Translations under genes and position numbers: made by a program
DNA from: Neocallimastix lanati (nom. inval.)
Lineage: Eukaryota > Neocallimastigomycota > Neocallimastigomycetes > Neocallimastigales > Neocallimastigaceae
Assembly (NCBI GenBank): GCA_016946835.1
Contig: JACVTC010000004.1
Location: 2,393,673-2,457,672, forward strand
Reading direction: 5' to 3'
Length of the DNA stretch: 64,000 nt
Notes under the pieces: generated by a model
What the model saw: only the letters and a program-made list of their open reading frames with translations
What the model was told of the DNA's origin: nothing
Databases searched by the model: none
In this document: one piece after another, positions 1-49,850 of the stretch
Layout: the number at the start of each line of letters is the position of its first letter
Numbering within the stretch: the stretch's first letter is position 1

Positions 1-3000
1 TAGTGAAATCAAGGAAGAAGTTATTCCAGAACAACCAATTAAAGAAAAACCAATTGAAGAACAACCAGTTGTTGAAGAAGTAGTTACTGAAATAAAGGAA
101 GAAGTTATTCCAGAACAACCAGCTGAAGAACAACCAGTTGTTGAAGAAGTTATTAGTGAAATTAAAGAAGAAAATGTATCTAAGCCAGATAATAAAAAGA
201 ATGTAATATATAGGGTATTTAAGAAGTCTAATAAACGTAGAAACAGAAAGAATAAGAAAGGAGAATTAGTAAGTGAAAATTCTATCATTAGTGATGAATC
301 TAAATCAGAAATTATTTCAGAGGAAGAAACTGAAAAACTTGTAGAACAACCAGTTAATGAAGAAGTTTCTTCTGAACCAAAAGAAGAAGTTGTTAATGAA
401 ATCAAAGAAGAAGCAATTCCAGAAACAATTGAAGAACAACCAATTGAAGAACAACCAATTGAAGAACAACCAATTGAAGAACAACCAATTGAAGAACAAC
501 CAATTGAAGAACAACCAATTGAAGAACAACCAATTGAAGAACAACCAATTGAAGAACAACCAATTGAAGAACAACCAATTGAAGAACAACCAATTGAAGA
601 ACAACCAATTGAAGAACAACCAATTGAAGAACAACCAATTGAAGAACAACCAATTGAAGAACAACCAGTTGTTGAAGAAATAGTTAATGAAATTAAGGAA
701 GAAGTTATTCCAGAACAATCAATTGAAGAACAACCAATTGAAAAACAACCAGTTGAAAAACAACCAGTTGTTGAAGAAATAGTTAATGAAATTAAGGAAG
801 AAGTTATTCCAGAACAATCAATTGAAGAAATAAAGGAAGAAGTTGTTGAAGTTCCATCTGAAGTTCCAGGAAAAAAGAAATTTATTAAGAGAATCATTAG
901 ATACATTACAAGAGTTAATCCAGATACTGGTAAGAATGAAGTTGTATCTGAAAAGTTGGTTGAAGAACCAGTTGAAGAAGTCAAAGAGGAAATTATTGAA
1001 GTTCCATCTGAGGTTCCAGGAAAAAAGAAGTATATCAAAAGAATCATTAGATATATTACCAGAGTTAACCCAATTACTGGAGAAAATGAAATTGTCGAAA
1101 ATGTTATAGAAGAACCAAGAGAAGAAGAAATTATTGCAATTGAAGAAAAACCAGTTGTTGAAGAAGTTAATAGTGAAGATAAGGAAGAAGCTATTCAAGA
1201 ACAACCAACTGGAGAACAACCAATTGTAGAACAACTTGATGAAGAACAACTTGATGAAGAACAACCAGTTGAAGAAAAACCAATTGAAGAAAAATCAATT
1301 GAAGAACAACCAGTTGTTGAAGAAATAGTAAATGAAATCAAAGAAGAAGCACTTCCAGAACAACCAATTGAAGAACAACCAATTGAAGAACAACCAGTTG
1401 TTGAAGAAATAGTAAATGAAATCAAAGAAGAAGCACTTCCAGAACAACCAATTGAAGAACAACCAATTGAAGAACAACCAATTGAAGAGCAACAAGTTGT
1501 TGAAGAAGTTGTTAGTGAAATCAAGGAAGAAGCACTTCCAGAACAACCAATTGAAGAACAACCAATTGAAGAACAACCAATTGAAGAACAACCAGTAGTT
1601 GAAGAAGTAGTTACTGAAATAAAGGAAGAAATTATTCCAGAACAACCAGCCGAAGAACAACCAGTTGTTGAAGAAGTTATTAGTGAAATTAAAGAAGAAA
1701 ATGTATCTAAGCCAGATAATAAAAAGAATGTTATATATAGGGTATTTAAGAAGTCTAATAAACGTAGAAACAGAAAGAACAAAAAAGGAGAATTAGTAAG
1801 TGAAAATTCTATTATTAGTGATGATTCCAAATCAGAAATTATTTCAGAAGAAGAAACTGAAAAACTTGTAGAACAACCAGTTAATGAAGAAGTTTCTTCT
1901 GAACCAAAAGAAGAAGTTGTTAATGAAATCAAAGAAGAAGCAATTCCAGAACAATCAATTGAAGAACAACCAGTTGAAGAAAAACCAATTGAAGAAAAAT
2001 CAATTGAAGAACAACCAGTTGTTGAAGAAGTTATTAGTGAAATCAAGGAAGAAGCACTTCCAGAACAACCAGTTGAAGAACAAACCGTTGAAGAACAACC
2101 AATTGAAGAACAACCAGTAGTTGAAGAAGTTGTTAGTGAAATTAAGGAAGAAGTTATTCCAGAACAACCAGTTTATGAACAACCAGTTGTTGAAGAAGTT
2201 AAAGAAGATAATGTATCTAAACAAGAAAATAAAAAGAATGTTATATATAGAGTATTTAAGAAGTCTAATAAACGTAGAAACAGAAAGAACAAAAAAGGAG
2301 AATTAGCAAGTGAAAATTCTACTATTAGTGATGATTCCAAATCAGAAATTATTTCAGAAGAAGAAACTGAAAAACTTGTAGAACAACCAGTTAATGAAGA
2401 AGTTTCTTCTGAACCAAAAGAAGAAGTTGTTAATGAAATCAAAGAAGAAGCAATTCCAGAACAACCAATTGAGGAACAACCAGTTGAAAAACAATCAATT
2501 GAAGAACAACCAATTGAAGAACAACCAGTTGAAGAACAACAAATTGAAGAACAACCAGTTGTTGAAGAAGTTATTAGTGAAATCAAGGAAGAAGTTATTC
2601 CAGAACAACCAACTGCAGAACAACCAATTGTAGAACAACTTGATGAAGAACGACCAGTTGAAGAAAAATCAATTGAAGAAAAATCAATTGAAGAACAACC
2701 AGTTGTTGAGGAAGTTATTAGTGAAATCAAGGAAGATGCACTTCTAGAACAACCAATTGAAGAACAACCAATTGAAGAACAACCAATTGAAGAACAACCA
2801 ATTGAAGAACAACCAGTTGTTGAAGAAGTTGTTAGTGAAATTAAGGAAGAAGTTATTCCAGAACAACCAGTTTATGAACAACCAGTTGTTGAAGAAGTTA
2901 AAGAAGATAATGTATCTAAACCAGAAAATAAAAAGAATGTTATATATAGAGTATTTAAGAAGTCTAATAAACGTAGAAACAGAAAGAACAAAAAAGGAGA

Positions 3001-6000: not shown

Positions 6001-6730
6001 AAAAGAAGAAGTTGTTAATGAAATCAAAGAAGAAGCAATTCCAGAACAACCAATTGAAGAACAACCAATTGAAGAACAACCAATTGAAAAACAATCAATT
6101 GAAGAACAACCAATTGAAGAACAACTAATTGAAGAACAACCAGTTGTTGAAGAAGTTGTTAGTGAAATTAAGGAAGAAGTTATTCCAGAACAACCAACTG
6201 GAGAACAACCAATTGTAGAACAACTTGATGAAGAACAACCAGTTGAAGAAAAACCAATTGAAGAAAAATCAATTGAAGAACAACCAGTTGTTGAAGAAGT
6301 TATTAGTGAAATCAAGGAAGAAGTTATTCCAGAACGACCAATTGAAGAACAACCAATTGAAGAACAACCAGTTGTTGAAGAAGTTGTTAGTGAAATTAAG
6401 GAAGAAGTTATTCCAGAACAACCAGTTTATGAACAACCAGTTGTTGAAGAAATAGTTAATGAAATTAAGGAAGAAGTTATTCCAGAACAATCAATTGAAG
6501 AACAATCAATTAAAGAACAATCAATTGAAGAACAACCAATTGAAGAACAACCAGTTGTTGAAGAAATAGTTAATGAAATTAAGGAAGAAGTTATTCCAGA
6601 ACAATCAATTGAAGAACAACCAATTGAAGAACAACCAGTTGTTGAAGACGTTGTTAGTGAAATTAAGGAAGAAGTTATTCCAGAACAATCAACTGAGGAA
6701 CAACCAGTTGTTGAAGAAGTTGTTAATGAA
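1..6730 (+). repeat. Repeat block A of the giant gene (about 700-bp higher-order repeat)
   Basis: The block is built from a unit of roughly 700-775 bp. Each unit has a basic segment (NKKNVIYRVFKKSNKRRN, then RKNKKGEL), a Ser/Glu-rich stretch (SENSIISDDSKSEIISEEE), the phrase EEVSSEPKEEVVNEIKEE, EEQPI/EEQPV runs, and a GEQPIVEQLDEEQ segment. I count eight basic segments, starting near 190, 1720, 2230, 2930, 3630, 4400, 5100 and 5810. Between 2930 and 5100 several neighbouring copies are 699 bp apart and nearly identical. Two copies of the KRIIRYITRVNP module found in all later blocks sit at about 870-1080. The run near 4265-4355 is a local expansion of a YEQPV pentapeptide. Confidence 0.85.
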
Positions 6731-9700: not shown

Positions 9701-12700
9701 CCAAAAGAAGAAATTGCTGAAGAACAACGAATTGAACAACCAGTAATTGAAGAAATTATTGAAACCGTTGTTGAAGAACAACCAAAGGAAGAAGTAAAGG
9801 AAGAAGTTCTTGAAGTTCCAACTGAAGAACCAGGTAGAAAGAGATTCATTAAGAGAATTATTAAGTATATTACCAGAAAGAATCCAGTTACTGGTGAAGA
9901 AGAAGTTGTTGAAGAAGTTGCTTCAGAACAACCAGTTGAGGAACAACCAGTTGAAGAAGTTTCTTCTGAACCAAAAGAAGAATTTACTGAAGAACAACCA
10001 ATTGAACAACCGGTTGTTGAAGAAGTTGTTGAAACCGTTGTTGAGGAACAAACAACTGAACAACCAGTTGAAGAAGTTTCTTCTGAACCAAAAGAAGAAA
10101 TTGCTGAAGAACAACCAATTGAACAACCAGTTGTTGAAGAAGTTGTTGTAACCGTTGTTGAAGAACAACCAAAGGAAGAAATAAAGGAAGAAATTGTTGA
10201 AGTTCCAACTGAAGAACCAGGTAGAAAGAGATTTATTAAGAGAATTATTAAGTATATTACCAAAAAGAATCCAGTTACTGGTGAAGAAGAAGTTGTTGAA
10301 GAAGTTGCTTCAGAACAACCAGTTGAGGAACAACCAGTTGAAGAAGTTTCTTCTGAACCAAAAGAAGAATTTACTGAAGAACAACCAATTGAACCACCGG
10401 TTGTTGAAGAAGATGTTGAAACCGTTGTTGAGGAACAAACAACTGAACAACCAGTTGAAGAAGTTTCTTCTGAACCAAAAGAAGAAATTGCTGAAGAACA
10501 ACCAATTGAACAACCAGTTGTTGAAGAAGTTGTTGAAACTGTTATTGAAGAACAACCAAAGGAAGAAGTAAAGGAAGAAATTGTTGAAGTTCCAACTGAA
10601 GAACCAGGTAGAAAGAGATTCATTAAGAGAATTATTAAGTATATTACCATAAAGAATCCAGTTACTGGTGAAGAAGAGGTTGTTGAAGAAGTTGCTTCAG
10701 AACAACCCGTTGAAGAACAACCAGTTGAACAACCAGTTGAACAACCAGTTGAACAATCTGTTGATGAAGAAGTTGTTGAAACTGTTGTTGAAGAACAACC
10801 AACTGAAAAACCAGTTGAAGAAGTTTCTTCTGAACCAAAGGAAGAAATTATTGAAAAACAACCAATTGAACAACCAATAGTTGAAGAAGTTGTTGAAACC
10901 GTTGTTGAAGAACAACCAAAGGAAGAAGTAAAGGAAGAAATTGTTGAAGTTCCAACTGAAGAACCAGGTAGAAAGAGATTCATTAAGAGAATTATTAAGT
11001 ATATTAACAGAAAGAATCCAGTTACTGGTGAAGAAGAAGTTGTTGAAGAAGTTGCTTCAGAACAACCCGTTGAAGAACAGCCAGTTGAACAACCAATAGT
11101 TGAAGAAGTTGTTGAAACTGTTGTTGAAGAACAACCAACAGAACAACCAGTTGAAGAAGTTTCTTCTGAACCAAAAGAAGAATTTACTGAAGAACAACCA
11201 ATTGAACAACCGGTTGTCGAAGAAGTTGTTGAAACCGTTGTTGAGGAACAACCAACTGACCAACCAGTTGAAGAAGTTTCTTCTGAACCAAAAGAAGAAA
11301 TTGCTGAAGAACAACCAATTGAACAACCAGTTGTTGAAGAAGTTGTTGAAACTGTTATTGAAGAACAACCAAAGGAAGAAGTAAAGGAAGAAATTGTTGA
11401 AGTTCCAACTGAAGAACCAGGTAGAAAGAGATTCATTAAGAGAATTATTAAGTATATTACCATAAAGAATCCAGTTACTGGTGAAGAAGAGGTTGTTGAA
11501 GAAGTTGCTTCAGAACAACCCGTTGAAGAACAACCAGTTGAACAACCAGTTGAACAACCAGTTGAACAATCTGTTGATGAAGAAGTTGTTGAAACTGTTG
11601 TTGAAGAACAACCAACTGAAAAACCAGTTGAAGAAGTTTCTTCTGAACCAAAGGAAGAAATTATTGAAAAACAACCAATTGAACAACCAATAGTTGAAGA
11701 AGTTGTTGAAACCGTTGTTGAAGAACAACCAAAGGAAGAAGTAAAGGAAGAAATTGTTGAAGTTCCAACTGAAGAACCAGGTAGAAAGAGATTCATTAAG
11801 AGAATTATTAAGTATATTAACAGAAAGAATCCAGTTACTGGTGAAGAAGAAGTTGTTGAAGAAGTTGCTTCAGAACAACCCGTTGAAGAACAGCCAGTTG
11901 AACAACCAATAGTTGAAGAAGTTGTTGAAACTGTTGTTGAAGAACAACCAACAGAACAACCAGTTGAAGAAGTTTCTTCTGAACCAAAAGAAGAATTTAC
12001 TGAAGAACAACCAATTGAACAACCGGTTGTCGAAGAAGTTGTTGAAACCGTTGTTGAGGAACAACCAACTGACCAACCAGTTGAAGAAGTTTCTTCTGAA
12101 CCAAAAGAAGAAATTGCTGAAGAACAACCAATTGAACAACCAGTTGTTGAAGAAGTTGTTGAAACTGTTATTGAAGAACAACCAAAGGAAGAAGTAAAGG
12201 AAGAAATTGTTGAAGTTCCAACTGAAGAACCAGGTAGAAAGAGATTCATTAAGAGAATTATTAAGTATATTACCATAAAGAATCCAGTTACTGGTGAAGA
12301 AGAGGTTGTTGAAGAAGTTGCTTCAGAACAACCCGTTGAAGAACAACCAGTTGAACAACCAGTTGAACAACCAGTTGAACAATCTGTTGATGAAGAAGTT
12401 GTTGAAACTGTTGTTGAAGAACAACCAACTGAAAAACCAGTTGAAGAAGTTTCTTCTGAACCAAAGGAAGAAATTATTGAAAAACAACCAATTGAACAAC
12501 CAATAGTTGAAGAAGTTGTTGAAACCGTTGTTGAAGAACAACCAAAGGAAGAAGTAAAGGAAGAAATTGTTGAAGTTCCAACTGAAGAACCAGGTAGAAA
12601 GAGATTCATTAAGAGAATTATTAAGTATATTAACAGAAAGAATCCAGTTACTGGTGAAGAAGAAGTTGTTGAAGAAGTTGCTTCAGAGCAACCCGTTGAA

Positions 12701-27700: not shown

Positions 27701-30700
27701 GTTGTTGAAGTTCCTTCTTCTGAACCAGGTAAAAAGAAGTTTATCAAGAGAATAATAAGATACATTACCATAATCAATCCAACCACTGGTGAAAAGGAAG
27801 TTGTTGAAGAACCAGTTGAAGAAATTCCAATTGAAGAAGTTTCTTCTGAACCAAAAGAAGAAGTAGTTCTTGAAGACAAGCCAACTGAAGAAGAACCAGT
27901 TGAAGAACAACCAGTTGTTGAACAGGTTACTGAAGTTGTTGAAGAGCAATCAATTGAAGAAAAATCAACTGAAGAAAAACCAGTTGAAAGTGAAAAGAAA
28001 CCGGGCTTCTTAGATAAACTTGCTCAAAAGATTACAGATTTAGTTGAACCAAAGGATGAAGTTGAAGAAAAGCCAATTGAAGAAAAACCAATTGAAGAAG
28101 TTTCTTCAGAACAAAAGGAAGAAGTTATTGAAAAACAACCAATTGAAGAACAACCAATTGAAGAACAACCAATTGAAGAACAACCAGTTGAAGAAGTTAC
28201 TTCTGAACAAAAGGAAGAAGTTGTTGAAGAACAACCAATTGAAGAACAACCAATTGAAGAACAACCAATTGAAGAACAACCAATTGAAGAACAACCAATT
28301 GAAGAACAACCAATTGAAGAACAACCAATTGAAGAACAACCAGTCACCTTAAAAGATAAACCAGTTGAAGAACCGGTTGGTGAAGTTAAGGAAGAAGTTG
28401 TTGAAGTTCCTTCTTCTGAACCAGGTAAAAAGAAGTTTATCAAGAGAATTATTAAGTACATTACAAGAATTAACCCAACTACTGGTGAGAAGGAAGTTGT
28501 TGAAGAACAACCAATTGAAGAACCAGTTAGTGAAGTTAAGGAAGAAATTGTTGAAGTTCCTTCTTCTGAACCAGGTAAGAAGAAGTTTATCAAGAGAATT
28601 ATAAGATACATTACCATAATCAATCCAAACACTGGTGAAAAGGAAATTGTTGAAGAACCAGTTGAAGAAGTTCCAGTTGAAGAAGTTTCTTCTGAACCAA
28701 AGGAAGAAGTAGTTCTTGAAGACAAGCCAACTGAAGAAGAACCAGTTGAAGAAAAACCAGTTGTTGAACAGGTTACTGAAGTTGTTGAAGAGCAATTAAT
28801 TGAAGAAAAACCAAATGAAGAAAAACCAGTCGAAAGTGAAAAGAAACCAGGCTTCTTAGATAAACTTGCACAAAAGATTACAGATTTAGTTGAACCAAAG
28901 GATGAAGTTGAAGAAAAGCCAATTGAAGAAAAACCAATTGAAGAAGTTTCTTCAGAACAAAAGGAAGAAGTTATTAAAAAACAACCAATTGAAGAACAAC
29001 CAATTGAAGAACAACCAATTGAAGAACAACCAATTGAAGAACAACCAATTGAAGAACAACCAATTGAAGAACAACCAGTCACCTTAGAAGATAAACAAGT
29101 TGAAGAACCAGTTAGTGAAGTTAAAGAAGAAGTTGTTGAAGTTCCTTCTTCTGAACCAGGAAAGAAAAAGTTTATCAAGAGAATTATAAGATACATTACC
29201 AGAATCAATCCAAACACTGGTAGAAAAGAAATTGTTGAAGAACCAGTTGAAGAAATTCCAATTGAAGAAGTTTCTTCTGAACCAAAAGAAGAAGTAGTTC
29301 TTGAAGACAAGCCCACTGAAGAAGAACCAGTTGAAGAACAACCAGTTGTTGAACAGGTTATTGAAGTTGTTGAAGAGCAATCAATTGAAGAAAAACCAAC
29401 TGAAGAAAAACCAGTCGAAAGTAAAAAGAAACCAGGCTTCTTAGATAAACTTGCTCAAAAGATTACAGATTTAGTTGAACCAAAGGATGAAGTTGAAGAA
29501 AAGCCAATTGAAGAAAAACCAGTTGAAGAAGTTTCCTCAGAACAAAAGGAAGAAGTTATTGAAGAACAACCAATTGAAGAACAACCAATTGAAGAACAAC
29601 CAATTGAAGAACAACCAATTGAAGAACAACCAATTGAAGAACAACCAATTGAAGAACAACCAATTGAAGAACAACCAATTGAAGAACAACCAATTGAAGA
29701 AAAACCAATTGAAGAACAACCAATTGAAGAACAACCAGTCACCTTAGAAGATAAACCAGTTGAAGAACCAGTTAGTGAAGTTAAGGAAGAATTTGTTGAA
29801 GTTCCTTCTTCTGAACCAGGAAAGAAGAAGTTTATCAAGAGAATTATTAAGTACATTACAAGAATTAACCCAACTACTGGTGAGAAGGAAGTTGTTGAAG
29901 AACAACCAATTGAAGAACCAGTTAATGAAGTTAAGGAAGAAATTGTTGAAGTTCCTTCTTCTGAACCAGATAAGAAGAAGTTTATCAAGAGAATTATAAG
30001 ATACATTACCATAATCAATCCAAACACTGGTGAAAAGGAAATTGTTGAAGAACCAGTTGAAGAAATTCCAATTGAAGAAGTTTCTTCTGAACCAAAAGAA
30101 GAAGTAGTTCTTGAAGACAAGCCAACTGAAGAAGAACCAGTTGAAGAACAACCAGTTGTTGAACAGGTTACTGAAGTTGTTGAAGAGCAATCAATTGAAG
30201 AAAAACCAACTGAAGAAAAACCAGTCGAAAGTGAAAAGAAACCAGGCTTCTTAGATAAACTTGCTCAAAAGATTACAGATTTAGTTGAACCAAAGGATGA
30301 AGTTGAAGAAAAGCCAACTGAGGAAAAACCAAATGAAGAAAAACCAATTGAAGAAAAACCAGTTGAAGAAGTTACTTCTGAACAAAAGGAAGAAGTTGTT
30401 GAAGAACAACCAATTGAAGAACAACCAATTGAAGAACAACCAATTGAAGAACAACCAATTGAAGAACAACCAATTGAAGAACAACCAATTGAAGAACAAC
30501 CAATTGAAGAACAACCATATGAAGAACAACCAATTGAAGAACAACCAATTGAAGAAAAACCAATTGAAGAACAACCAATTGAAGAACAACCAGTCACCTT
30601 AGAAGATAAACCAGTTGAAGAACCAGTTAGTGAAGTTAAGGAAGAATTTGTTGAAGTTCCTTCTTCTGAATCAGATAAGAAGAAGTTTATCAAGAGAATT

Positions 30701-33700
30701 ATAAGATACATTACCATAATCAATCCAAACACTGGTGAAAAGGAAATTGTTGAAGAACCAGTTGAAGAAGTTCCAATTGAAGAAGTTTCTTCTGAACCAA
30801 AAGAAGAAGTAGTTCTTGAAGACAAGCCAACTGAAGAAGAACCAGTTGAAGAACAACCAGTTGTTGAACAGGTTACTGAAGTTGTTGAAGAGCAATCAAT
30901 TGAGGAAAAACCAACTGAAGAAAAACCAGTCGAAAGTGAAAAGAAACCAGGCTTCTTAGATAAACTTGCTCAAAAGATTACAGATTTAGTTGAACCAAAG
31001 GATGAAGTTGAAGAAAAGCCAACTGAGGAAAAACCAAATGAAGAAAAACCAATTGAAGAAAAACCAGTTGAAGAAGTTACTTCTGAACAAAAGGAAGAAG
31101 TTGTTAAAGAACAACCAATTGAAGAACAACCAATTGAAGAACAACCAATTGAAGAACAACCAATTGAAGAACAACCGGTCACCTTAGAAGATAAACCAGT
31201 TGAAGAACTAGTTAGTGAAGTTAAGGAAGAAGTTGTTGAAGTTCCTTCTTCTGAACCAGGTAAAAAGAAGTTTATCAAGAGAATTATAAGATACATTACC
31301 ATAATCAATCCAAACACTGGTGAAAAGGAAATTGTTGAAGAACCAGTTGAAGAAGTTCCAATTGAAGAAGTTTCTTCTGAACCAAAAGAAGAAGTAGTTC
31401 TTGAAGACAAGCCAACTGAAGAAGAACCAGTTGAAGAACAACCAGTTGTTGAACAGGTTACTGAAGTTGTTGAAGAGCAATCAATTGAAGAAAAACCAAC
31501 TGAAGAAAAACCAGTCGAAAGTGAAAAGAAACCGGGCTTCTTAGATAAACTTGCTCAAAAGATTACAGATTTAGTTGAACCAAAGGATGAAGTTGAAGAA
31601 AAGCCAACTGAGGAAAAACCAAATGAAGAAAAACCAATTGAAGAAAAACCAGTTGAAGAAGTTACTTCTGAACAAAAGGAAGAAGTTGTTGAAGAACAAC
31701 CAATTGAAGAACAACCAATTGAAGAACAACCAATTGAAGAACAACCAATTGAAGAACAACCAATTGAAGAACAACCAATTGAAGAACAACCAATTGAAGA
31801 ACAACCAATTGAAGAACAAACAATTGAAGAACAACCAATTGAAGAACAACCGGTCACCTTAGAAGATAAACCAGTTGAAGAACTAGTTAGTGAAGTTAAG
31901 GAAGAAGTTGTTGAAGTTCCTTCTTCTGAAACAGGAAAGAAGAAGTTTATCAAGAGAATTATTAAGTACATTACAAGAATTAACCCAACTACTGGTGAAA
32001 AGGAAATTGTTGAAGAACAACAAATTGAAGAACCAGTTAGTGAAGTTAAGGAAGAAGTTGTTGAAGTTCCTTCTTCTGAACCAGGTAAGAAGAAGTTTAT
32101 CAAGAGAATAATAAGATACATTACCATAATCAATCCAACCACTGGTGAAAAGGAAGTTGTTGAAGAACCAGTTGAAGAAGTTCCAATTGAAGAAGTTTCT
32201 TCTGAACCAAAAGAAGAAGTAGTTCTTGAAGACAAGCCAATTGAAGAAGAACAAATTGAAGAACAACCAATTGTTGAACAGGTTACTGAAGTTGTTGAAG
32301 AGCAATCAATTGAAGAAAAACAAACTAAAGAAAAACCAGTCGAAAGTAAAAAGAAACCAGGCTTCTTAGATAAACTTGCTCAAAAGATTACAGATTTAGT
32401 TGAACCAAAGGATGAAGTTGAAGAAAAGCCAATTGAAGAAAAACCAATTGAAGAAGTTTCTTCAGAACAAAAGGAAGAAGTTGTTGAAGAACAACCAATT
32501 GAAGAACAACCAGTCACCTTAGAAGATAAACCAGTTGAAGAACCAGTTAGTGAAGTTAAAGAAGAAGTTGTTGAAGTTCCTTCTTCTGAACCAGGAAAGA
32601 AAAAGTTTATCAAGAGAATTATAAGATACATTAACCGAATCAATCCAAACACTGGTAGAAAAGAAATTGTTGAAGAACCAGTTGAAGAAATTCCAATTGA
32701 AGAAGTTTCTTCTGAACCAAAAGAAGAAGTAGTTCTTGAAGACAAGCCCACTGAAGAAGAACCAGTTGAAGAACAACCAGTTGTTGAACAGGTTATTGAA
32801 GTTGTTGAAGAGCAATCAATTGAAGAAAAACCAACTGAAGAAAAACCAGTCGAAAGTAAAAAGAAACCAGGCTTATTAGATAAACTTGCTCAAAAGATTA
32901 CAGATTTAGTTGAACCAAAGGATGAAGTTGAAGAAAAGCCAATTGAAGAAAAACCAGTTGAAGAAGTTTCTTCAGAACAAAAGGAAGAAGTTGTTGAAGA
33001 ACAACCAATTGAAGAACAACCAATTGAAGAACAACCAATTGAAGAACAACCAATTGAAGAACAACCAATTGAAGAACAACCGGTCACCTTAGAAGATAAA
33101 CCAGTTGAAGAACCAGTTAGTGAAGTTAAAGAAGAAGTAATTGAAGTTCCTTCTTCTGAACCAGGAAAGAAGAAGTTTATCAAGAGAATTATTAAGTACA
33201 TTACAAGAATTAACCCAACTACTGGTGAAAAGGAAATTGTTGAAGAACAACAAATTGAAGAACCAGTTAGTGAAGTTAAGGAAGAAGTTGTTGAAGTTCC
33301 TTCTTCTGAACCAGGTAAGAAGAAGTTTATCAAGAGAATAATAAGATACATTACCAGAATCAATCCAAACACTAGTAGAAAGGAAGTTGTTGAAGAACCA
33401 GTTGAAGAAGTTCCAGTTGAAGAAGTTTTTTCTGAACCAAAAGAAGAAGTAATTTTTGAAGACAAGCCAACTGAAGAAGAACTAGTTGAAGAACAACCAG
33501 TTGTTGAAAATGTTACTGAAGTTGTTGAAGAAAAACCAATAGAAGAAAAGCCAAATGAAGAATCAGTTAGTGAAGTTAAGGAAGAAATAGTTGAAGTTCC
33601 TTCTTCTGAACCAGATAAAAAGAAGTTTATCAAGAGAGTTATCAGATACATTACCAGAATTAACCCAACTACTGGTGAAAAGGAAGTTGTTGAAGAACAA

Positions 33701-36700
33701 CCAATTGAAGAACCAGTTAATGAGGTTAAGGAAGAAGTTATTGAAGTTCCTTCTTCTGAACCAGGTAAAAAGAAGTTTGTCAAGAGAATTATAAGATACA
33801 TTACCATAATCAATCCAACCACTGGTCGAAAGGAAGTTGTTGAAGAACCAGTTGAAGAAGTTCCAGTTGAAGAAGTTTCTTCTGAACCAAAAAAAGAAGT
33901 AATTCTTGAAGAAAAGCCAACAGAAGAACAAACAAATGAAGAACAACCAGTTGAAGAACAATCAGTTGAAGAAAAACCAATTGAAGAACAACCTGTTGAA
34001 GAACAACCAATTGAAGAACCACTTAGTGAAGTTAAAGAAGAAATTGTTGAAGTTCCTTCTTTAGAACCAGGAAAAAGAAAGTACTTAAAAAGAATTGTTA
34101 AATATATTAAGAAAATAAATCCAAGTACTGGTAAGAAGGAAATCATTGCTGAACAAATTATAAACGAAGAACCTGTTGAAAATATTTCTACTGAACCAAA
34201 AGGAGAAGAAGTTCTTGAAGATAAGCCAACCGAAGAACAACCAATTGAAGTACAACCAGTTGAAGAACAATCAATTGAAGAAAAACCAATTGAAGAACAA
34301 CCTGTTGAAGAACAACCAATTGAAGAACCACTTAGTGAAGTTAAAGAAGAAATTATTGAAGTTCCTTCTGGAGAACCAGGAAAAAGAAAGTACTTAAAAA
34401 GAATTGTTAAATATATTAAGAAAATAAATCCAAGTACTGGTGAGAAGGAAATCATTGCTGAACAAATTGTAAACGAAGAACCAGTTGAAAACATTTCTAC
34501 TGAACCAAAAGGAGAAGAAGTTCTTGAAGATAAGCCAACCGAAGAACAATCAATTGAAGTACAACCAGTTGAAGAACAATCAGTTGAAGAAAAACCAATT
34601 GAAGAACAACCGGTTGAAGAACAACCAATTGAAAAACAACCCGTTGAAGAACAACCAATTGAAGAACCATTTAGTGAAGTTAAAGAAGAAATTGTTGAAG
34701 TTCCTTCTGGAGAACCAGGAAAAAGAAAGTACTTAAAAAGAATTGTTAAATATATTAAGAAAATAAATCCAAGTACTGGTGAGAAGGAAATCATTGCTGA
34801 ACAAATTATAAACGAAGAACCTGTTGAAAATATTTCTACTGAACCAAAAGGAGAAGAAGTTCTTGAAGATAAGCCAACCGAAGAACAACCAATTGAAGTA
34901 CAACCAGTTAAAGAACAATCAGTTGAAGAAAAACCAATTGAAGAACAACCTGTTGAAGAACAACCAATTGAAGAACCACTTAGTGAAGTTAAAGAAGAAA
35001 TTGTTGAAGTTCCTTATGGAGAACCAGGAAAAAGAAAGTACTTAAAAAGAATTGTTAAATATATTAAGAAAATAAATCCAAGTACTGGTGAGAAGGAAAT
35101 CATTGCTGAACAAATTATAAACGAAGAACCAGTTGAAAACATTTCTACTGAACCAAAAGGAGAAGAAGTTCTTGAAGATAAGCCAACCGAAGAACAACCA
35201 ATTGAAGTACAACCAGTTGAAGAACAATCAGTTGAAGAAAAACCAATTGAAGAACAACCGGTTGAAGAACAACCAATTGAAAAACAACCCGTTGAAGAAC
35301 AACCAATTGAAGAACCACTTAGTGAAATTAAAGAAGAAATTGTTGAAATTCCTTCTGGAGAACCAGGAAAAAGAAAGTACTTAAAAAGAATTGTTAAATA
35401 TATTAAAAAAATAAATCCAAGTACTGGTGAGAAGGAAATCATTGCTGAACAAATTGTAAACGAAGAACCAGTTGAAAATATTTCTACTGAACCAAAAGGA
35501 GAAGAAGTTCTTGAAGATAAGCCAACCGAAGAACAACCAATTGAAGTACAACCAGTTGAAGAACAATCAGTTGAAGAAAAACCAATTGAAGAACAACCGG
35601 TTGAAGAACAACCAATTGAAAAACAACCAGTTGAAGAACAACCAGTTGAAGAACAACCAATTGAAGAACCATTTAGTGAAGTTAAAGAAGAAATTGTTGA
35701 AGTTCCTTCTGGAGAACCAGGAAAAAGAAAGTACTTAAAAAGAATTGTTAAATATATTAAGAAAATAAGTCCAAGTACTGGTGAGAAGGAAATCATTGCT
35801 GAACAAATTGTAAACGAAGAACCTGTTGAAAATATTTCTACTGAACCAAAAGGAGAAGAAGTTCTTGAAGATAAGCCAACCGAAGAACAACCAATTGAAG
35901 TACAACCAGTTGAAGAACAATCAGTTGAAGAAAAACCAATTGAAGAACAACCGGTTGAAGAACAACCAATTGAAAAACAACCAGTTGAAGAACAACCAAT
36001 TGAAGAACCACTTAGTGAAATTAAAGAAGAAATTGTTGAAGTTCCTTCTGGAGAACCAGGAAAAAGAAAGTACTTAAAAAGAATTGTTAAATATATTAAG
36101 AAAATAAATCCAAGTACTGGTGAGAAGGAAATCATTGCTGAACAAATTGTTAAAGAAGAACCAGTTGAAAATGTTTCTATTGAACCAAAAATAGAAGTTC
36201 TTGAAGATAAGCCAACTGAAGAACAACCAATTGAAGAACAACCAGTTAAAGAAAAACCAATTGAAGAAAAACCAGTTGAAGAACAATCAATTGAAGAACC
36301 ACTAAGCGAAGTTAAAGAAGAAATTGTTGAAGTTCCTTCTGGAGAACCAGGAAAAAGAAAGTACTTAAAAAGAATTGTTAAGTATATTAAGAAAATAAAT
36401 CCAAGTACTGGTGAGAAGGAAATCATTGCTGAACAAATTGTTAAAGAAGAACCAGTTGAAAATGTTTCTAATGAACCAAAAATAGAAGAAATTCTTGAAG
36501 ATAAGCCAACTGAAGAACAACCAATTGAAGTACAACCAGTTGAAGAACAATCAGTTGCAGTACAACCAGTTGAAAAACAACCAGTAGAAAAACAACCAGT
36601 TGAAGAACAACAAATTGAAAAACAAACAGTTGAAGAACAAACAGTTGAAGAACAACCAATTGAAGAACCATTTAGTGAAGTTAAAGAAGAAATTGTTGAA

Positions 36701-39700
36701 GTTCCTTCTGGAGAACCAGGAAAAAGAAAGTACTTAAAAAGAATTGTTAAATATATTAAGAAAATAAATCCAAGTACTGGTGAGAAGGAAATCATTGCTG
36801 AACAAATTGTAAACGAAGAACCTGTTGAAAATATTTCTACTGAACCAAAAGGAGAAGAAGTTCTTGAAGATAAGCCAACCGAAGAACAACCAATTGAAGT
36901 ACAACCAGTTGAAGAACAATCAGTTGAAGAAAAACCAATTGAAGAACAACCAATTGAAGAACCACTTAGTGAAATTAAAGAAGAAATTGTTGAAGTTCCT
37001 TCTGGAGAACAAGGAAAAAGAAAATACTTAAAAAGAATTGTTAAATATATTAAGAAAATAAATCCAAGTACTGGTGAGAAGGAAATCATTGCTGAACAAA
37101 TTGTTAAAGAAGAACCTGTTGAAAATGTTTCTACTGAACCAAAAGGAGAAGAAGTTCTTGAAGATAAACTAATTGAAGAACAATCAATTGAAGTACAACC
37201 AGTTGTTGAACCAATTGTTGAACAAGTTACTGAAATTGTTGAAGAAAAACCAATTAAAAAGCAACCAGTTGACTTAGAGAATAAACCATTTGAAGAACCA
37301 GTTAATAATATAAAAGAAGAAATTATTGAGGTTCCTTCCAAAGAACCAGGTAAGAAGAAATTTATTAAGAGAATCATTAGATACATTACTCGAATTAATC
37401 CAATTACTGGTGAAAAGGAGGTTGTTGAAGAACAACCAATTGAAGAACAAGTTAGTGAAGTTAAGGAAGAAATAATTGAAGTTCCTTCTTCTGAACCTGG
37501 TAAGAAGAAGTTTATCAAGAGAATTATTAGATACATTACCAGAATCAATACAACTACTGGTGAAAAGGAAGTTGTTGAAGAAAAAGTCGAAGAAGTTCCA
37601 GTTGAAGAAGTTTCTTCTGAACCAAAAGAAGAAGAAGTACTTGAAAGTAAACCAATTGAAGAACAACTAGTTGAAAAACAACCAATTGAGGAAAAACCAG
37701 TTGAAGAACCGATTAATGAAGTTAAAGAAGAAATTGTTGAAGTTCCTTCTGGAGAACCAGGTAAAAGAAAGTTCTTAAAAAGAATTGTTAAATATATTAA
37801 GAAAATTAATCCAAATACTGGTGAGAAGGAAATCATTGCTGAACAAATTGTTAAAGAAGAACCAGTTGAAGAACCAATTAAAGAATCAGTTAAAGAACAA
37901 GTTAATGAAAATGTTAATGAAGAAAAACCAAATAAAGAATTAATTGAAAAAATAAATACTGAAAAGGTTGATCAAGTCCCAATTAAAAAGATAATACTTG
38001 AACCAAAGAAAGAAATAATTAAAGGAAATAAAATGGTTAATGAAAAAGTAATTGAAACACCAGTTTCTGAAGTAAGGGAAGAAATCGTTGAAGTTCCTTC
38101 TGGGGAACCAGGTAAAAGAAAGTTCTTAAAAAGAATTGTTAAATATATTAAAAAAATTAATCCAAATACTGGTGAGAAGGAAATCATTGCTGAACAAATT
38201 GTTAAAGAAGAACCAGTTGAAGAACAAGTTAATGAAAATATTACTGAAGTAAAACCAAATGAAGAATTAATTGAAAAAATAAATACCGAAAAAGTTGAAC
38301 AAGTTCCAATTAAAAAGATAATTCCTGAACCAAAGAAAGAAATAATTAAAGGAAATAAGATAGTTAATGAAAAAGTAATTGAAACACCAGTTTCTGAAGT
38401 AAAGGAAGAAATTGTTGAAGTTCCTTCTGGAGAACCAGGTAAAAGAAAGTTCTTAAAAAGAATTGTTAAATATATTAAGAAAATTAATCCAAATACTGGT
38501 GAGAAGGAAATCATTGCTGAACAAATTGTTAAAGAAGAACCAGTTGAAGAACCAATTAAAGAATCAGTTAAAGAGGAGTATATTGAAATTCCTCATGAAG
38601 AAACTGATAAGAAGAAATATGTAAAAAGAACTGTTAAATATGTAAGAAGAATTAATTCAAATAATAATGGAAAAGAAAATAAAGTGAAACCTAAAAAATC
38701 AGAAGTCATGAAAAATTCAATTACTAATGATGAAATGCAAGTTACAAGAAGAGTTATAACTGAGTATATAACTATTGAAGATGAAGAAAATGAACAAGAT
38801 AAAGTTAAAGATACTGAGTTAGAAACTGAAAATATTGTAACTGAAAATGAAGGAGAAGAAATTTCATATGTAACTAAAGCTGTAGTAACCGAACTTGTTG
38901 CACTTATTGAAAGTGAAAGTGAAGATGAAGATGAAAATAAAAAGAAATTAAATAAGGTTATTGTAGAAAATGAAGAAAAAGAAACTATTGAACAAAATAA
39001 TATAAAGAAAGAAATAATTGAAAAAGAAAAGAGGACTAAAAGGAATAAAGATAAATTATTTAATAATTTAAAAATAGACTTTACCAAGAGTAAAAAACAA
39101 TTAAAAGAAAATATTGATATATTAATTGAAAATAAAAATGCTGAGGTCATTAAAAAGGTAGAGGATATAGAAAGTGAAGAAGATAAAGAAAAGACTCCTA
39201 TAAATAGAAGAATTACCAGATATAAAATTAATCCAGTTACCAGAGAAAAAGAAGTAATTAATAGACATATTGAAAATGATTCTCAAGATTTGTATACCAT
39301 TAGAGAAGAAATTGTTGAAATTCCAACTGAAAATTCAAATAAAAGATTTGTAAAGAAAATAATTAAAAGTATTATTAGAATTAATCCTACAACTGGTGAA
39401 AAAGAAATAGTTGATGAAACATCAATAGATAAACCAATAGAACAATTTGATCAACCAATTTCTACTTTAAGAGAAGAAATCGTTGAAGCTCCATCTGAAG
39501 AACCTGGAAAAAAGAGATTTATTAAGAAAATTATGAGATACTTCATAAAAATTAATCCTTTAACTGGTGAAAAAGAAATTATTGATGGTCAACAAAATTC
39601 AGTTATAAGTACTAAAGAAGAAATAGAGGAAGTTCAAGATGAGAATGAAAGAACTGATAATGCTAAATATATTAAAAGAATAATTAGATACAGAATTAAT

Positions 39701-42355
39701 TCATCTACCGGTGAAAAAGAAATGATTGAAGAGCCTATTGAGCATATTTTAGAAGAACCAATGTCCTCTATTAAAGAAGAAATTATTGAATTACCATTAA
39801 ATAAATTAGGTAAAAGAAGATTTATAAAGAGAATTATAAAATATATTACTAGAGTTAATCCTATTACTGGTGAAAGTGAAGTCATTGAAGATAATATAGT
39901 TGAAGAACCAATTGAAAAATTTGATAAGCCAATTTATACTATTAAAGAGGAAATTGTTGAGATTCCAACTTACGAACCAGGTAAAAAGAGATTTATTAAG
40001 AAAATTATTAGATCGTGTATTAAAATTAATCCAGATACTGGGGAAAGAGAAATTCTTGATGAAAATCAAATACAAAATTCCTCAGAAAATCCAACTGAAA
40101 AACCAAAAGTATCAACATATTCAAAGAGAATTATAAAGTATAAATTTAATTCAACAACAGGTCAAGAAGAGGTTATACATGAACAAAATTCAAATGATTT
40201 AGTTAAACAAGATTTAGAAGAATCTGTAATCACTGTAGTAGAAGGACTTGTAGAAGTTCCTTCAAATAAATATGGAAAAAAGGCATTTGCTAAAAGGATT
40301 ATTAAATATTTAACTAAAATCAACACAACAACAGGTGAAAAGGAAGTATTTGAAGAAGAATCTATTGTTGAACCAATTGAACAGGAATCCGGAAAACCTG
40401 TTGTGATTATTAGAGAGGCAATTGTTGAAGTTCCTTCTAAAGGATCAAATAGAAAGAGTTTCATAAAAAAGATTATAAGATATCTTATTAAAATTAACAT
40501 AATAACAGGTGAAAAGGAAATAGTTGGAAAACAACAATTTGAAGAACCAATAATTAATGTTAAAGAAGAAATTGTAGATATACCCACCGAAGAAATTAAT
40601 ACGAATTATAGCAAAAGAATTACAAGATATAGAATTAATCCAGTTACTGGCGAAAGAGAAATTATTAATGAACAAGAATTAAAGAATAAAAAGTCAGAAG
40701 GTCAATATAATGGAAGAGAAACTGAAGGAATAAAAGAAGAAATTGTTGAAATTCCTTCTAATGAAATAGGAAAAAGTAAATTTATTAAAAGAACTATTAA
40801 ATATACAACTAGAATAAATCCTATCACCGGTAAAAAAGAAATTAAAGAAGAAGATCCAATAGAAGAAACTGTGGAACAATCAGCAGAACCAGAAACTTAT
40901 ATTAAAAAAGAAATAATTGAAGTTCCATCTGATGTTCCAGGTAAAACAAAAATAGTTAAAAGAACAAATAAATATATTTATAGAGTAAATCCATATACTG
41001 GTGAAAAAGAAATTGTTGGAGAGCAAACGTTTGACGAACCATACGAATATGTGTCAAAAGAGGTTGTAACCTTTAATGAAGAAATTGTTGAAGCTCCATA
41101 TTCTGAGCCAAGTAAAAAAAGATACATGAAAAGAACTATTAAATATATAACCAAAGTTAATCTAACTACTGGTGAAAAGAATATAGTTGGAAAACAACAA
41201 ATGGATAAGCCAATTCAAGATTCGGATAAGCCAGTAACCCTTATTAAAGAAGAAATTGTGGAAGTTCCATCTGAGATTCAAGATAAAAGAAATTTTATTA
41301 AGAGAATTATTAAATATGTTATCGATATTAACCCTGTTACAAATGAAAGGAAAATAATTGAAAGACAAAGTATTGAAGAACCGATTGAAAGTTTTAAATA
41401 TCTTAATTTAAGTGAAGTAAAGTTTACTAAATCTGAAGAAGATGATTTTACTGAAGGAAATTCAGTCATAGATAAACTTAAGAGTTCTCTTCTTGCTAAT
41501 AATAATGAAGAAAATTATGAAATTAATTATGATGAAACTGTTGATGAAGAAAGTTACAATGGAAAAGAATTAATTGATCAAATTAAGAATGCTCTTACTT
41601 TCGATGATGTTAAATCTGATGATATATCTGACCTAGATAATAAAATCATTCCATCATCTACCGAAGATAAGAAAGAAATAATCTATAAAAATTATAAGGA
41701 ATATGAAAATTATATAGACAATGAATCTGCTACTTATAAGAATCAATATGAATCTTCATATAATCATTTAACTGATCAAAACAATAAGACAATTGATGAA
41801 GAAAAAATATTAAAAAGATTACCAGAACATGATGATGAATATATTGTAGTTGAAAATAATATTATTGAACAAGATGTTATACCGGAAGAAGAATTAGCAT
41901 CAACTAATGAAAAACATTATTTAAAAAGAAAGCCTGATCTAAATTTCTTATTTACTAATACTAACTATGAAGATACTGAAAAAACTAATATTGTTGATGA
42001 ATCAAAAACTGTCAGACCAAAAACTTCAAAGAAACAAATAGAGTCTAGTTTAGAAGATGCTACTTGTTGTGGAGTTAAGAAAATACGCTTTGATAAAAAG
42101 TCAAAAATTGATGATGAAATTGATGAACAAAAAGAAAAGGTTGAAGTTGTAAAAAACCATAAAAATAAAGAATCAAGAAGATCTAAATCTTTTAGAAAGA
42201 GAAATTCAAAGAAAATTGTAAAGAAGGAAAATGAAAATGAAGATGATATATATATTAATGGAGCTTCTACAGTAGTTGAAAGTCCAAAAGAAAATAAATT
42301 TAAATCATACTTTGATAATGACAACACCAATGACAAACATTGTATAATTATGTAG
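1..42355 (+). CDS. Giant charge-alternating repeat protein with C-terminal CaaX box (5'-partial)
   Basis: I do not recognise a named family. One frame (codons starting at position 2) is open from the left edge to TAG at 42353-42355, which is 14,118 codons; the only internal stop is TGA at 23525-23527. I followed the frame by hand at the start and at sampled points in every block, including 23528-38033. The start codon lies outside the window; I saw no in-frame ATG before 38033. The protein alternates acidic, Pro-rich linkers (EEQPIEEQPVVEEV type) with basic modules around GKKKFIKRIIRYITRINP followed by xTGEKE. Composition is dominated by E, P, V, K, I and Q, with no Cys or Trp noticed in the repeat blocks. 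I saw no signal peptide or membrane helix; the C-terminus is CIIM, so cytoplasmic membrane-face anchoring by prenylation is inferred. The Pro-Glu-Val-Lys composition recalls the titin PEVK spring by analogy only. A pseudogene or an assembly error at 23.5 kb cannot be excluded. Confidence 0.85.
428..667 (+). repeat. 15-bp minisatellite encoding the IEEQP pentapeptide
   Basis: About 16 consecutive copies of attgaagaacaacca, identical at the nucleotide level, encode IEEQP in the giant frame. Similar runs recur in block C, for example near 16755-16965, 18540-18700, 20440-20650, 22215-22395, 23400-23580, 25350-25530, 26785-26925, 29565-29735, 30405-30590 and 31695-31850. Copy number differs between otherwise matching modules (5 to 16 copies), as expected for replication slippage. 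Because the unit is a multiple of three, expansion keeps the frame. Confidence 0.9.
6730..14150 (+). repeat. Repeat block B (GRKRFIKRIIKYITRKNPVTGEEE modules)
   Basis: The repeated phrase is KEEIVEVPTEEPGRKRFIKR followed by IIKYITRKNPVTGEEEVVEE, then VASEQPVEEQ and several EEVSSEPKEEI / QPVVEEVVETVVEEQ linkers. I count about 14 basic modules (near 7530, 7790, 8070, 9310, 9835, 10230, 10610, 10970, 11425, 11785, 12235, 12595, 13125 and 13700). The first part (6740-7000) is transitional and uses the SSEPGKKK form typical of block C. Confidence 0.85.
10450..12685 (+). repeat. 813-bp tandem unit, nearly three copies
   Basis: Sequence at 10450-11260 recurs 813 bp later and again after another 813 bp. 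Landmarks such as the start of the segment encoding EQPVEQPVEQPVEQSVDEEV sit at matching positions, and the peptides read from the three copies are identical over the parts I compared. The unit is 271 codons, so frame is preserved. Each unit contains two basic modules, one reading YITIKNP and one reading YINRKNP. The third copy diverges near 12685. Confidence 0.9.
15760..22300 (+). repeat. Segmental duplication inside block C, offset 3,681 bp
   Basis: Positions about 15760-18620 and 19440-22300 are near-identical copies. Marker segments recur at exactly 3,681 bp (for example 16135 and 19816, 16645 and 20326, 18122 and 21803), and a reading of more than 1.6 kb is identical between copies. Beyond about 18600 the offset becomes 3,696, because the second copy has one more 15-bp IEEQP unit. 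Related but less exact copies continue to about 29 kb. The offset is 1,227 codons, so frame is kept. Confidence 0.85.
23519..23540 (+). other. Garbled patch with the only in-frame stop of the giant frame
   Basis: Inside an IEEQP run the frame reads PI-D-H-stop (TGA 23525-23527) and then R-K-P, returning to the same frame. Compared with the matching place near 26860-26900, the patch is 9 bp shorter, explained by a loss of seven bases plus two single-base losses. The net loss is a multiple of three, so the frame is restored. Scattered small indels in a monotonous repeat look more like a sequencing or consensus error than a clean mutation, but a true nonsense allele is possible. Confidence 0.8.
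33560..38600 (+). repeat. Repeat block D (GKRKYLKRIVKYIKKINPSTGEKE modules, about 300-350 bp)
   Basis: The unit reads SEVKEEIVEVPSGEPGKRKY, LKRIVKYIKKINPSTGEKEI, IAEQIVNEEPVENISTEPKG, EEVLEDKPTEEQPIEVQPVE and then EEQP/EKQP linkers. I count about 13 basic modules (near 34070, 34378, 34728, 35028, 35370, 35720, 36060, 36357, 36720, 37014, 37760, 38113 and 38440). The basic core is more lysine-rich than in blocks B and C. Two block-C-type modules reappear near 37360-37560, so block types are interleaved. Confidence 0.85.
38600..41400 (+). repeat. Block E: old, diverged copies of the basic module
   Basis: After an acidic non-repetitive stretch (about 38700-39200), roughly 14 strongly diverged copies of the core follow, still recognisable by KRxxxY, then N-P-x-T-G-E-K/R-E. 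They alternate between full forms preceded by EEIVEVP and a shorter form lacking that lead (for example SKRIIKYKFNSTTGQEE and SKRITRYRINPVTGERE). Unlike blocks A-D, codons here are not homogenised, and Met and Cys occur. I read this as the ancestral state of the repeat. Confidence 0.75.
41400..42355 (+). other. Unique C-terminal domain of the giant protein
   Basis: About 310 non-repetitive residues, rich in Asp, Glu, Asn and Lys. The region begins with an acidic part (SEVKFTKSEEDDFTEGNSVI), continues with a Tyr/Asn-rich stretch (YKNYKEYENYIDNESATYKN) and carries a CC pair in ATCCGVKKIRF. It ends with a basic cluster (RRSKSFRKRNSKKIVKKENE) followed by a short acidic linker and CIIM. I recognise no domain. 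A basic cluster ahead of a CaaX box is a usual second membrane-binding signal in prenylated proteins. Confidence 0.7.
42341..42352 (+). other. CaaX prenylation box, CIIM
   Basis: The last four codons before TAG are tgt ata att atg, giving Cys-Ile-Ile-Met. Both middle residues are aliphatic, and Met in the last place is the usual preference of farnesyltransferase. Processing would remove the last three residues and methylate the Cys. This is a sequence-motif prediction only. Confidence 0.75.
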
Positions 42356-47820: not shown

Positions 47821-47825
47821 TAATG

Positions 47826-48060
47826 AAACTCACAATAACTGGTTGTTCTTTTAGCAATAAACTGGCTATAACTAAAATCTTGGTAATTCTCCAGCAACTC
47901 TGCGTAGTGAGGATTGTCGTCGATCACGTCGGCGTTGACCCACTCTTGTTTATCATTCTGGTACGCAACCAGATATTGGTATTGCCCTTGATGCTTCCTT
48001 GATACAAGGATGTGAATTATCGATAATTTAATAGGAATATAGGATTTAAATAAAAGGAAA
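47826..48060 (-). pseudogene. Chromodomain-like remnant with GC-richer composition
   Basis: The minus strand reads IIHILVSRKHQGQYQYLVAY, then QNDKQEWVNADVIDDNPHYA, then ELLENYQDFSYSQF. The pattern (IL-x-R, QYLV-x-Y, EWV, ...LL-x-x-Y) matches a chromodomain of the kind at the C-terminus of Ty3/gypsy polyproteins. About 130 bp (47870-48000) are clearly richer in G and C than anything nearby. No integrase, RNase H or RT precedes it: upstream on the same strand there is only the gag remnant. It may be a 3' end left after internal deletion, or a domain of other origin. Confidence 0.55.
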
Positions 48061-48163
48061 GTAGATAGGAGATTTGATTCATTGATTGAATCAAGTGTAG
48101 GAAAATTATAATAAATTGTTTTTAAATTTTTTGATGTTCTGGACTCCTTTTGAAGTTCACCAA

Positions 48164-49234: not shown

Positions 49235-49850
49235 ATCAAGATAGCAACTAAAATTAGGGTAAGGTTATTGTTAAGATTTTGATATATTTTATGTTTTAAA
49301 TTTAAATAAAATAATATGTTTTATTAAAATTTTACTAAGTCAATATGTCTATATAGTAATATGCTATATAGATATATAATAATAATAATAATAAATATTT
49401 AAATGTTTAGTTTAATAAAAATTTATTTATAATAAACTTTATTAATTAAAATTATTTAATTATTTTTATTTATAATAATTTCTCTTTATTTAATAATTAA
49501 ATATCTATGAACTATTACTATTAAGGTAATTTTACAATAACCTTACAAAGAACATAAAAGAGAGATTTTTACATCTTTCTGTTATACTTTGTAAGTTACA
49601 TAATAATAATATTTAATTATAAGATATTAATAATATAGTGATATAAATATTAATAAAATATAAAGAAAAATTTAATTATATAATTAATTTGAATAATTGA
49701 AATTAATATTAGATATGTTGTAAACGAATGTGATTTCGCCAATTTTTAAAATACAAATTTTTAATACGCCATTTATTTTTAATGGCTTGTAAAATTTTTT
49801 GCTAAATCTATAAAAAATTTTAATACAATTATATTAAAAAAAAATAAATG
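49235..49850. other. AT-rich spacer upstream of the gag remnant
   Basis: No coding potential seen. On the minus strand it would be the 5' leader of the gag remnant, but I find no convincing LTR, primer-binding site or second LTR copy. There is a TAA-type run near 49378-49395; the rest is A/T-rich sequence. Confidence 0.55.

Follow-up and report, generated by a model that had tools for sequence, protein, structure and literature searches.

The entropic spring of titin, its PEVK stretch, consists to about 70% of proline, glutamate, valine and lysine. We analyzed a window of 64,000 nucleotides from the anaerobic gut fungus Neocallimastix lanati (contig JACVTC010000004.1, here C334, positions 2,393,673 to 2,457,672) and found that it carries most of what is apparently a real, single-exon gene for a cytosolic product of about 15,350 residues. 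The same four amino acids make up about 61% of this product and 60.6-64.0% of the whole proteins in a family of at least four giants, named below by contig (C334, C738, C335 and C368), which appears to be new as far as we have searched. Our best overall explanation, to which we give a probability of roughly 0.55, is that the family consists of membrane-anchored giant scaffolds or springs of this fungus. Like the PEVK stretch, the giants are charged, spaced by prolines, predicted to be disordered and born of repeats, and at their giant size they would follow the logic of an entropic spring. They differ from titin in being non-muscle proteins that are encoded in a single open frame and end in a CaaX box or a hydrophobic tail; titin's PEVK stretch is several times shorter than theirs, and the likeness is one of composition only.

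Epiplastins (alveolins/IMC1, articulins and epiplasmins) share with the giants the succession of a head, a charged low-complexity middle dominated by V, I, E, K and P, and a tail, and are far shorter. The C334 protein contains 89 EIVEVP-like motifs, which resemble the alveolin motif EKIVEVP, and the likeness may extend to predicted beta strands and coil, which for the giants come from a low-confidence model of the last 1,021 residues. According to the excerpted text of an epiplastin survey, ABD domains are defined by composition and by beta/coil prediction after a first search with IMCp, and lipid-modified cysteines have been reported for a Plasmodium alveolin (PMC6212826). IMCp (PF12314) had no match in the whole N. 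lanati genome, while the positive control, Caulobacter, was found. The survey excerpt gives the composition of epiplastins as 33±7% V+I, 35±6% charged residues, 16±5% E, 0.4±0.7% G and 1±2% S (PMC6212826). The corresponding values for the whole C334 protein are 23.1, 42.0, 27.7, 1.9 and 4.9%, and the C335 giant, with 26.9% V+I, comes nearer to the epiplastin range in that respect, though not in its E content of 30.1%, so that the giants differ from epiplastins in having too much E, S and G and too little V+I. The same excerpt requires more than three VPV modules for an articulin, a rule that is arbitrary by the survey's own account (PMC6212826); VPV occurs 6, 32, 4 and 6 times in the C334, C738, C335 and C368 giants, nominally above three, though at a very low density of one per ~250 to 4,200 residues. 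As far as this text goes, there is no epiplastin in early-branching fungi (PMC6212826). Given the lack of IMCp and a composition outside the range, we do not place the giants among the epiplastins.

Charged, V/P-rich low-complexity proteins also occur outside the epiplast-bearing groups, where the excerpted survey describes epiplastin-like proteins in Basidiomycetes and 'titin-like' proteins in insects (PMC6212826). Whereas these are single copy and have numerous VPV modules, the giants are encoded by at least four genes, have sparse VPV modules and possess a 44-residue module of their own. In size, the giants belong to the class of the largest fungal proteins, which in the available text of a survey of 689 proteomes are nonribosomal peptide synthetases (NRPSs) of ~23,000 residues and up to 2,546 kDa, from Trichoderma (PMC7988114). 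NRPSs are catalytic multidomain enzymes, whereas the scanned parts of the giants contain no credible enzyme domain, and the largest giant, C335, remains below their record at 1.92 MDa. A first-pass annotation of the window had placed its product among the largest single polypeptides, which holds for the size class; it is not the largest, as the NRPSs of ~23,000 residues exceed it. On paper, the giants could function like titin PEVK or like epiplastins, and we file them as neither.

The reading frame and its relatives

Frame 2 of the plus strand is free of stops at 2-23524 (7,841 codons) and again at 23528-42352 (6,275 codons), and terminates with a stop at 42353-42355. When the frame was translated and its stops counted, the TGA at 23525-23527 was the sole internal stop and none further was found before 42353. 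These results bear out the earlier description of a frame of more than 14,000 codons (7,841 + 1 + 6,275) that is open over the left two thirds of the window save for one patch. The start, which that description had found missing from the window, lies 3.7 kb to its left: a stop at -3739 (with the base preceding window position 1 numbered 0) precedes the opening of the frame, and the first ATG is found at -3697 in an A-rich context. From this ATG to 42355, the entire frame (C334:2389975-2436027) comprises 15,350 codons, and its product, expected earlier to be above one megadalton, has a predicted mass of 1.77 MDa and a pI of 4.3; the exact length rests on a repeat-rich PacBio assembly.

The TGA lies within a patch of 15-bp repeats with the unit CAACCAATTGAAGAA. 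Compared with the ideal repeat, the patch has small indels whose sum is a multiple of three, and the frame is the same on either side. According to the excerpted assembly report, MECAT was used to assemble the N. lanati genome from PacBio reads (62x, mean length 7.8 kb), followed by polishing with Arrow (PMC8561657). Because of the 15-bp repeat, the frame-keeping indels and the Arrow-polished PacBio assembly, a consensus error looks like the simplest explanation of this TGA.

Openness alone proves little about coding at this locus, because repeats built of 3n-bp units keep themselves open, and long open frames also run on the opposite strand, including one of 2,546 codons at 6430-14067. The two remaining sense frames contain 483 and 2,931 stops across the C334 open reading frame (ORF). 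We therefore argue for coding from substitution patterns and from relatives.

A six-frame search of the genome with the C334 head yielded 237 matches and, among the matches listed, all lay in the C334 gene or in three further giant open frames. These relatives, all complete from start to stop codon without interruption, comprise 8,139 (C738), 10,256 (C368) and 16,692 (C335) codons, and the masses of the giants span 0.93-1.92 MDa. C334 and C738 form family 1, with heads aligned at 70% identity, and C335 and C368 form family 2, with heads 69% identical. When further members were sought with the head of family 2 and the tail of family 1, none beyond these pairs was found among the best-scoring candidates. 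The family-2 tail also matched a 434-codon open frame on C752 (56% identity, residues 408-607). This similarity between the C335 tail and the C-terminal part of a separate frame suggests that C335 may have acquired its membrane tail by fusion. The C752 frame (minus strand, 621-1922 of the fetched piece) had no Pfam family above cut-off. Antisense to the C368 giant, we noted an open frame of 5,117 codons rich in Ser, Thr, Gly and Cys; it is probably not a gene, because its low ratio of nonsynonymous to synonymous differences per site (pN/pS) in the modules mirrors that of the sense frame.

Relatives in other records were sought with three protein searches, in each of which the ~8,000 best word-sharing candidates were scored; among the organism-named records of these candidates, none from outside the phylum was listed. 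Record P0001 corresponds to the C-terminal 1,021 residues of the C334 giant itself. Heads were matched by P0004 (Piromyces finnis) and by P0005 and P0006 (both JGI), tails by P0002 and P0003 (both JGI), and P0008 (Piromyces sp. E2) has a head and a tail within one 992-residue model. The head in P0009 (JGI) is family-2-like, with 33 and 39 five-residue words common to the family-2 heads vs 1 and 5 for family 1, and P0010 (JGI) is 98% identical to the C335 tail. The C-terminal tail, proposed earlier as a query against other records, thus recurs in Piromyces and metagenome records, as do the heads. P0007 (H8356DRAFT_1702494, N. lanati), the sole public model matched here to a giant, is a perfect match to positions 7430-8139 of the C738 giant, so that its 710 residues cover only this part of 8,139. 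The family has at least four giants in one genome and relatives in another genus, and little of it is visible in current annotation.

Evidence for translation

For 82 A-module cores of C334 (53 distinct), pN/pS in the sense frame was 0.30 and stops were found in no copy, compared with 0.88 and 1.13 in the two other sense frames, where 36/53 and 53/53 distinct copies contained stops. An earlier set of 81 C334 cores had given 0.28. The modules of C738, C335 and C368 (62, 58 and 34 cores) behaved similarly, with sense values of 0.21, 0.23 and 0.25 and no stops. Across all four giants, the other two sense frames ranged from 0.70 to 1.58, one of them with a stop in every distinct copy; pS of the modules was 0.32-0.46. 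Non-repetitive parts gave 0.45 (95% interval 0.35-0.57) for the family-1 head, 0.44 (0.38-0.52) for the family-1 tail region and 0.39 (0.30-0.51) for the family-2 head. Heads, tails and modules are under protein-level constraint, with pN/pS of 0.21-0.67. We consider it very probable, judging from the sequence, that the gene is real and translated in this frame, and a titin-scale repeat protein, as the first-pass annotation had proposed, is still the best reading, given three uninterrupted giant relatives, a conserved head and tail, and purifying selection.

The same annotation had taken frame conservation through duplications of 813 bp and 3,681 bp as a sign of translation. The duplications exist and keep the frame: mean identity in 300-bp windows was 99.4% for the self-match of 10283-11903 at +813 and 99.7% for that of 15563-18743 at +3681. 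For 60-mers occurring 2 to 6 times, all 316 of the 316 distinct spacings were divisible by three, and pairs of 15-mers (occurring up to 200 times) were in phase 328,561 times and out of phase 4 times. As proof of translation, however, the duplications are weak, because in-register exchange between 3n-bp repeats preserves the frame anyway.

Repeat architecture and predicted structure

The C334 protein (27.7% E, 12.7% V, 10.4% I, 10.2% K and 10.0% P) is laid out as a unique head of ~450 residues, ~14,500 residues of repeats and a unique tail of ~330 residues. Module A (EVKEEIVEVPSEEPGKKKFIKRIIKYITRINPTTGEKEIVEE) has 44 residues and occurs in 100 or 99 copies, depending on the threshold; a hidden Markov model of it matched 99 times in C334, 83 in C738, 73 in C368 and 75 in C335. 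By its sequence, module A appears to be beta-prone with a basic core, and it is embedded in EEQP/EEKP spacers. Much of the remaining repeat region consists of E[EK][QK]P spacers with a proline at about every fifth residue. Module B is basic and, by eye, has what we take to be a likeness to nuclear localization signals (NLSs), and module C (KPGFLDKL...), present in 22 copies, looks amphipathic. Each of the four giants has 4 or 5 cysteines and 0 or 1 tryptophan.

In Uversky charge-hydropathy analysis, 293/305 (C334), 153/161 (C738), 328/332 (C335) and 204/204 (C368) windows fell on the disordered side, which is consistent with a very long, acidic, PEVK-like polyampholyte that is predicted to be mostly disordered. 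AlphaFold modelling of the last 1,021 residues, with four aligned sequences, placed strands throughout the module array, where helices were few and short. The only conclusion that we draw from this model, with low confidence, is that the modules may be strand-prone rather than helical. An extended chain measures ~0.36 nm per residue, at which the contour length of C334 would be ~5.5 µm.

Domain searches covered 4,841 of the 15,350 C334 residues with Pfam (N-terminal 1,232, internal 1,133 and 1,175, and C-terminal 1,301). No credible Pfam or NCBIfam domain was detected in the scanned parts of the giants; the four C334 segments contained no Ig, FN3 or kinase domain, and the scanned segments no lamin or intermediate-filament domain in Pfam. 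The scanned head and tail of C335 had no enzyme domain above cut-off, and PDB sequence searches with the two terminal segments of C334 returned nothing below E = 0.09. Matches of the repeats to known families were rejected as effects of composition. They include Extensin_1 (60.4 bits against a cut-off of 105, E down to 2.6e-16), Ribosomal_S3Ae and others below cut-off, as well as two families that scored above cut-off on short repeat pieces, DnaB_bind (34.2 bits, cut-off 20.6, yet with no single significant stretch) and DUF4070 (22.7 bits against a cut-off of 22, with 79 of the 144 model positions matched). A DNA match on contig C1 was likewise set aside as unrelated by eye, being a 464-codon Asn/Glu/Asp-rich repeat frame with a signal-peptide-like start. 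That no described family has the layout of the giants, as had been supposed, agrees with the literature searched (top-ranked results, mostly open-access), in which none was found.

Membrane anchoring and proposed role

The C334 giant ends in a CaaX box, CIIM, and two of its only four cysteines form a CC pair that may be a palmitoylation site. In an alignment of family-1 tails from the two giants and three relatives, CIIM is found in 5/5 and CC in 4/5 sequences. Basic clusters, e.g. SRKSRKDKDKDCIIM, are found upstream of the CaaX box in family-1 tails; a polybasic cluster combined with a CaaX box is a plasma-membrane signal. Among enzymes for CaaX processing, the genome has six ICMT-family matches above cut-off, a family that also scores in bacterial and archaeal controls. 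Hydrophobic C-terminal segments number four in C335 and one in C368, and there are none in C334 and C738. On these motifs, the giants are likely to be membrane-anchored.

We propose farnesylation at CIIM as the most likely modification of the C334 C-terminus, with palmitoylation at CC as a further possibility. The lipidated end would hold the protein on the cytosolic side of a membrane. The basic clusters ahead of the CaaX box in the family tails favour the plasma membrane, and in the sister proteins C335 and C368 the hydrophobic segments would serve as anchors instead. Basic modules may pair with acidic spacers of the same or other chains, which would give an extensible, cross-linked submembrane meshwork or an entropic spring of ~5.5 µm contour. 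Its likely setting would be a stage that lacks a wall or grows fast, such as the zoospore, which in anaerobic gut fungi has no wall. By analogy, we regard a role as mechanical scaffold or spring as an even bet. Only tentatively do we suggest a lineage-specific membrane skeleton of plasma-membrane-tethered PEVK-like springs, held by farnesyl groups in family 1 and by hydrophobic segments in family 2, which would combine the roles of titin and epiplast in a single fungal molecule and comprise the largest known fungal structural proteins. If translated, the giants would rank with the largest fungal polypeptides and, to our knowledge, would be the largest non-enzymatic ones, and prenyl-anchored giant springs, if true, would be a new way of building a membrane skeleton. 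In the related genus Orpinomyces, talin and vinculin are kept and integrin is missing, according to the part of the report available (PMC5042518).

Alternative explanations

Several points weigh against the proposed family of membrane-anchored scaffolds or springs. One stop-poor antisense frame also scores low in the modules (0.50, 0.38, 0.28 and 0.30); the two family-2 values (0.28 and 0.30) are near those of the sense frame, and the family-2 modules alone do not decide the strand. These low scores are a mirror of the sense signal, as third positions coincide, and the strand is decided by the non-repetitive heads and tails, through both their pN/pS and their recurrence in this frame elsewhere. 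Constraint is weak in the unique tail of family 1 (0.67, 0.53-0.87) and in the family-2 tail (0.61, 0.49-0.77). Prenylation is read from four residues, the C738 giant has no CC pair, and the basic NLS-like clusters would fit a nuclear-envelope protein equally well. The AlphaFold model, with a mean predicted local distance difference test score (pLDDT) of 41 and a predicted template modelling score (pTM) of 0.22, supports no fold. The window copy has the in-frame TGA, at which truncation at residue 9,074 is possible, or the copy may be a pseudogene. Expression is deduced from the sequence, and location, stage and mechanical properties are predictions.

The strongest rival explanation holds that a modest prenylated protein of head and tail had its middle expanded by unequal exchange to a length that is nearly neutral, with the function residing in the ends. 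The lengths of the four genes (8,139 to 16,692 codons) and the near-identical 813-bp and 3,681-bp duplications fit such expansion, as does a DNA comparison of 236 A-module cores, 216 of which have their nearest match within the same gene, so that arrays grow and turn over gene by gene. We nevertheless consider it unlikely, given module pN/pS of 0.21-0.30 at pS of 0.32-0.46, three stop-free arrays of 8,000-17,000 codons, and the giant size of all four members found. If instead the C334 copy were decaying, with a real TGA that ends the product at residue 9,074 and leaves the CaaX half untranslated, the TGA and the accompanying small indels of the assembly would be explained; this is improbable for a single lesion in 46 kb whose indels total a multiple of three, which is followed by 6,275 stop-free codons and lies in a 15-bp repeat of an A-rich assembly that was, according to the excerpted report, Arrow-polished from PacBio reads (PMC8561657). 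A comparably doubtful reading likens the giants to lamins, as nuclear-envelope or lamina-like proteins with the NLS-like basic modules and the CaaX box as targeting signals for the inner nuclear membrane. CaaX in 5/5 tails and eight basic module-B copies that we take to resemble NLSs would speak for it; the Pfam-scanned parts, however, contain no lamin or intermediate-filament domain, family 2 bears hydrophobic tails instead, and in place of a helical rod there are spacers with a proline at about every fifth residue and strands in the model. We regard it as very improbable that the frame is a non-coding AT-rich satellite open by chance, or an assembly expansion. Repeats of 3n bp are open on both strands here (antisense 2,546 codons, and 5,117 in C368), and with a mean read of 7.8 kb, as given in the excerpted report, copy numbers may be off (PMC8561657), but heads and tails are non-repetitive with pN/pS < 1, relatives exist in another genus and the giants occupy four separate loci, so that the chance-open satellite is largely refuted already. 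Membrane-anchored giant scaffolds or springs remain the preferred reading.

Features and surroundings of the locus

Table 1. Coordinates of sequence features within the 64,000-nucleotide window.
Feature	Position	Strand	Basis
Giant ORF, part before the in-frame TGA; start upstream of the window	2..23524	+	reading frame
Module B region (NVIYRVFKKSNKRRNRKNKKGE..., basic); 7 of 8 copies in the window; end approximate	200..5290	+	residue positions
Near-identical 813-bp tandem duplication	10283..12716	+	self-comparison
Module C region (KPGFLDKLAQKITDLV...), 22 copies, with module A and EEQP/EEKP spacers; end approximate	14168..32400	+	residue positions
3,681-bp duplication (15563-18743 vs 19244-22424, 99.7%)	15563..22424	+	self-comparison
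Single in-frame TGA inside the 15-bp tandem-repeat patch	23525..23527	+	reading frame, repeat alignment
Giant ORF, part after the in-frame TGA, stop codon included	23528..42355	+	reading frame
Divergent A modules in tandem, lacking EEQP/EEKP spacers; beta strands predicted with low confidence	39161..41368	+	
Unique C-terminal tail, partly conserved in Piromyces and metagenome relatives	41369..42352	+	
Cys-Cys pair; possible palmitoylation site	42065..42070	+	
C-terminal CaaX box Cys-Ile-Ile-Met (CIIM)	42341..42352	+	

Downstream of the giant gene, the right edge of the window (64000) coincides with the end of the contig; TTAGGG/CCCTAA is absent from the last 2 kb, and the contig end is no telomere of such type. 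At 50001-56000, ~6 kb with a GC content of 4-5% consist of long ATAAA-type pentanucleotide runs with strong strand asymmetry. Minus-strand frames of up to 1,955 codons in this region look like repeat artefacts, which is a warning against trusting open frames alone. At 45250-49240, we observed broken pieces with stops that by eye resemble a LINE-like reverse transcriptase (plus strand) and a retrotransposon gag (minus strand). A 1,358-codon frame at 57598-61671 (minus strand) appears by eye to be a Ty3/gypsy polyprotein with protease, reverse transcriptase, RNase H, integrase and a chromodomain-like end. The upstream neighbours of the giant gene, also by eye, are a LIS1-like WD40 protein, an FG-repeat nucleoporin and a long-chain acyl-CoA synthetase.

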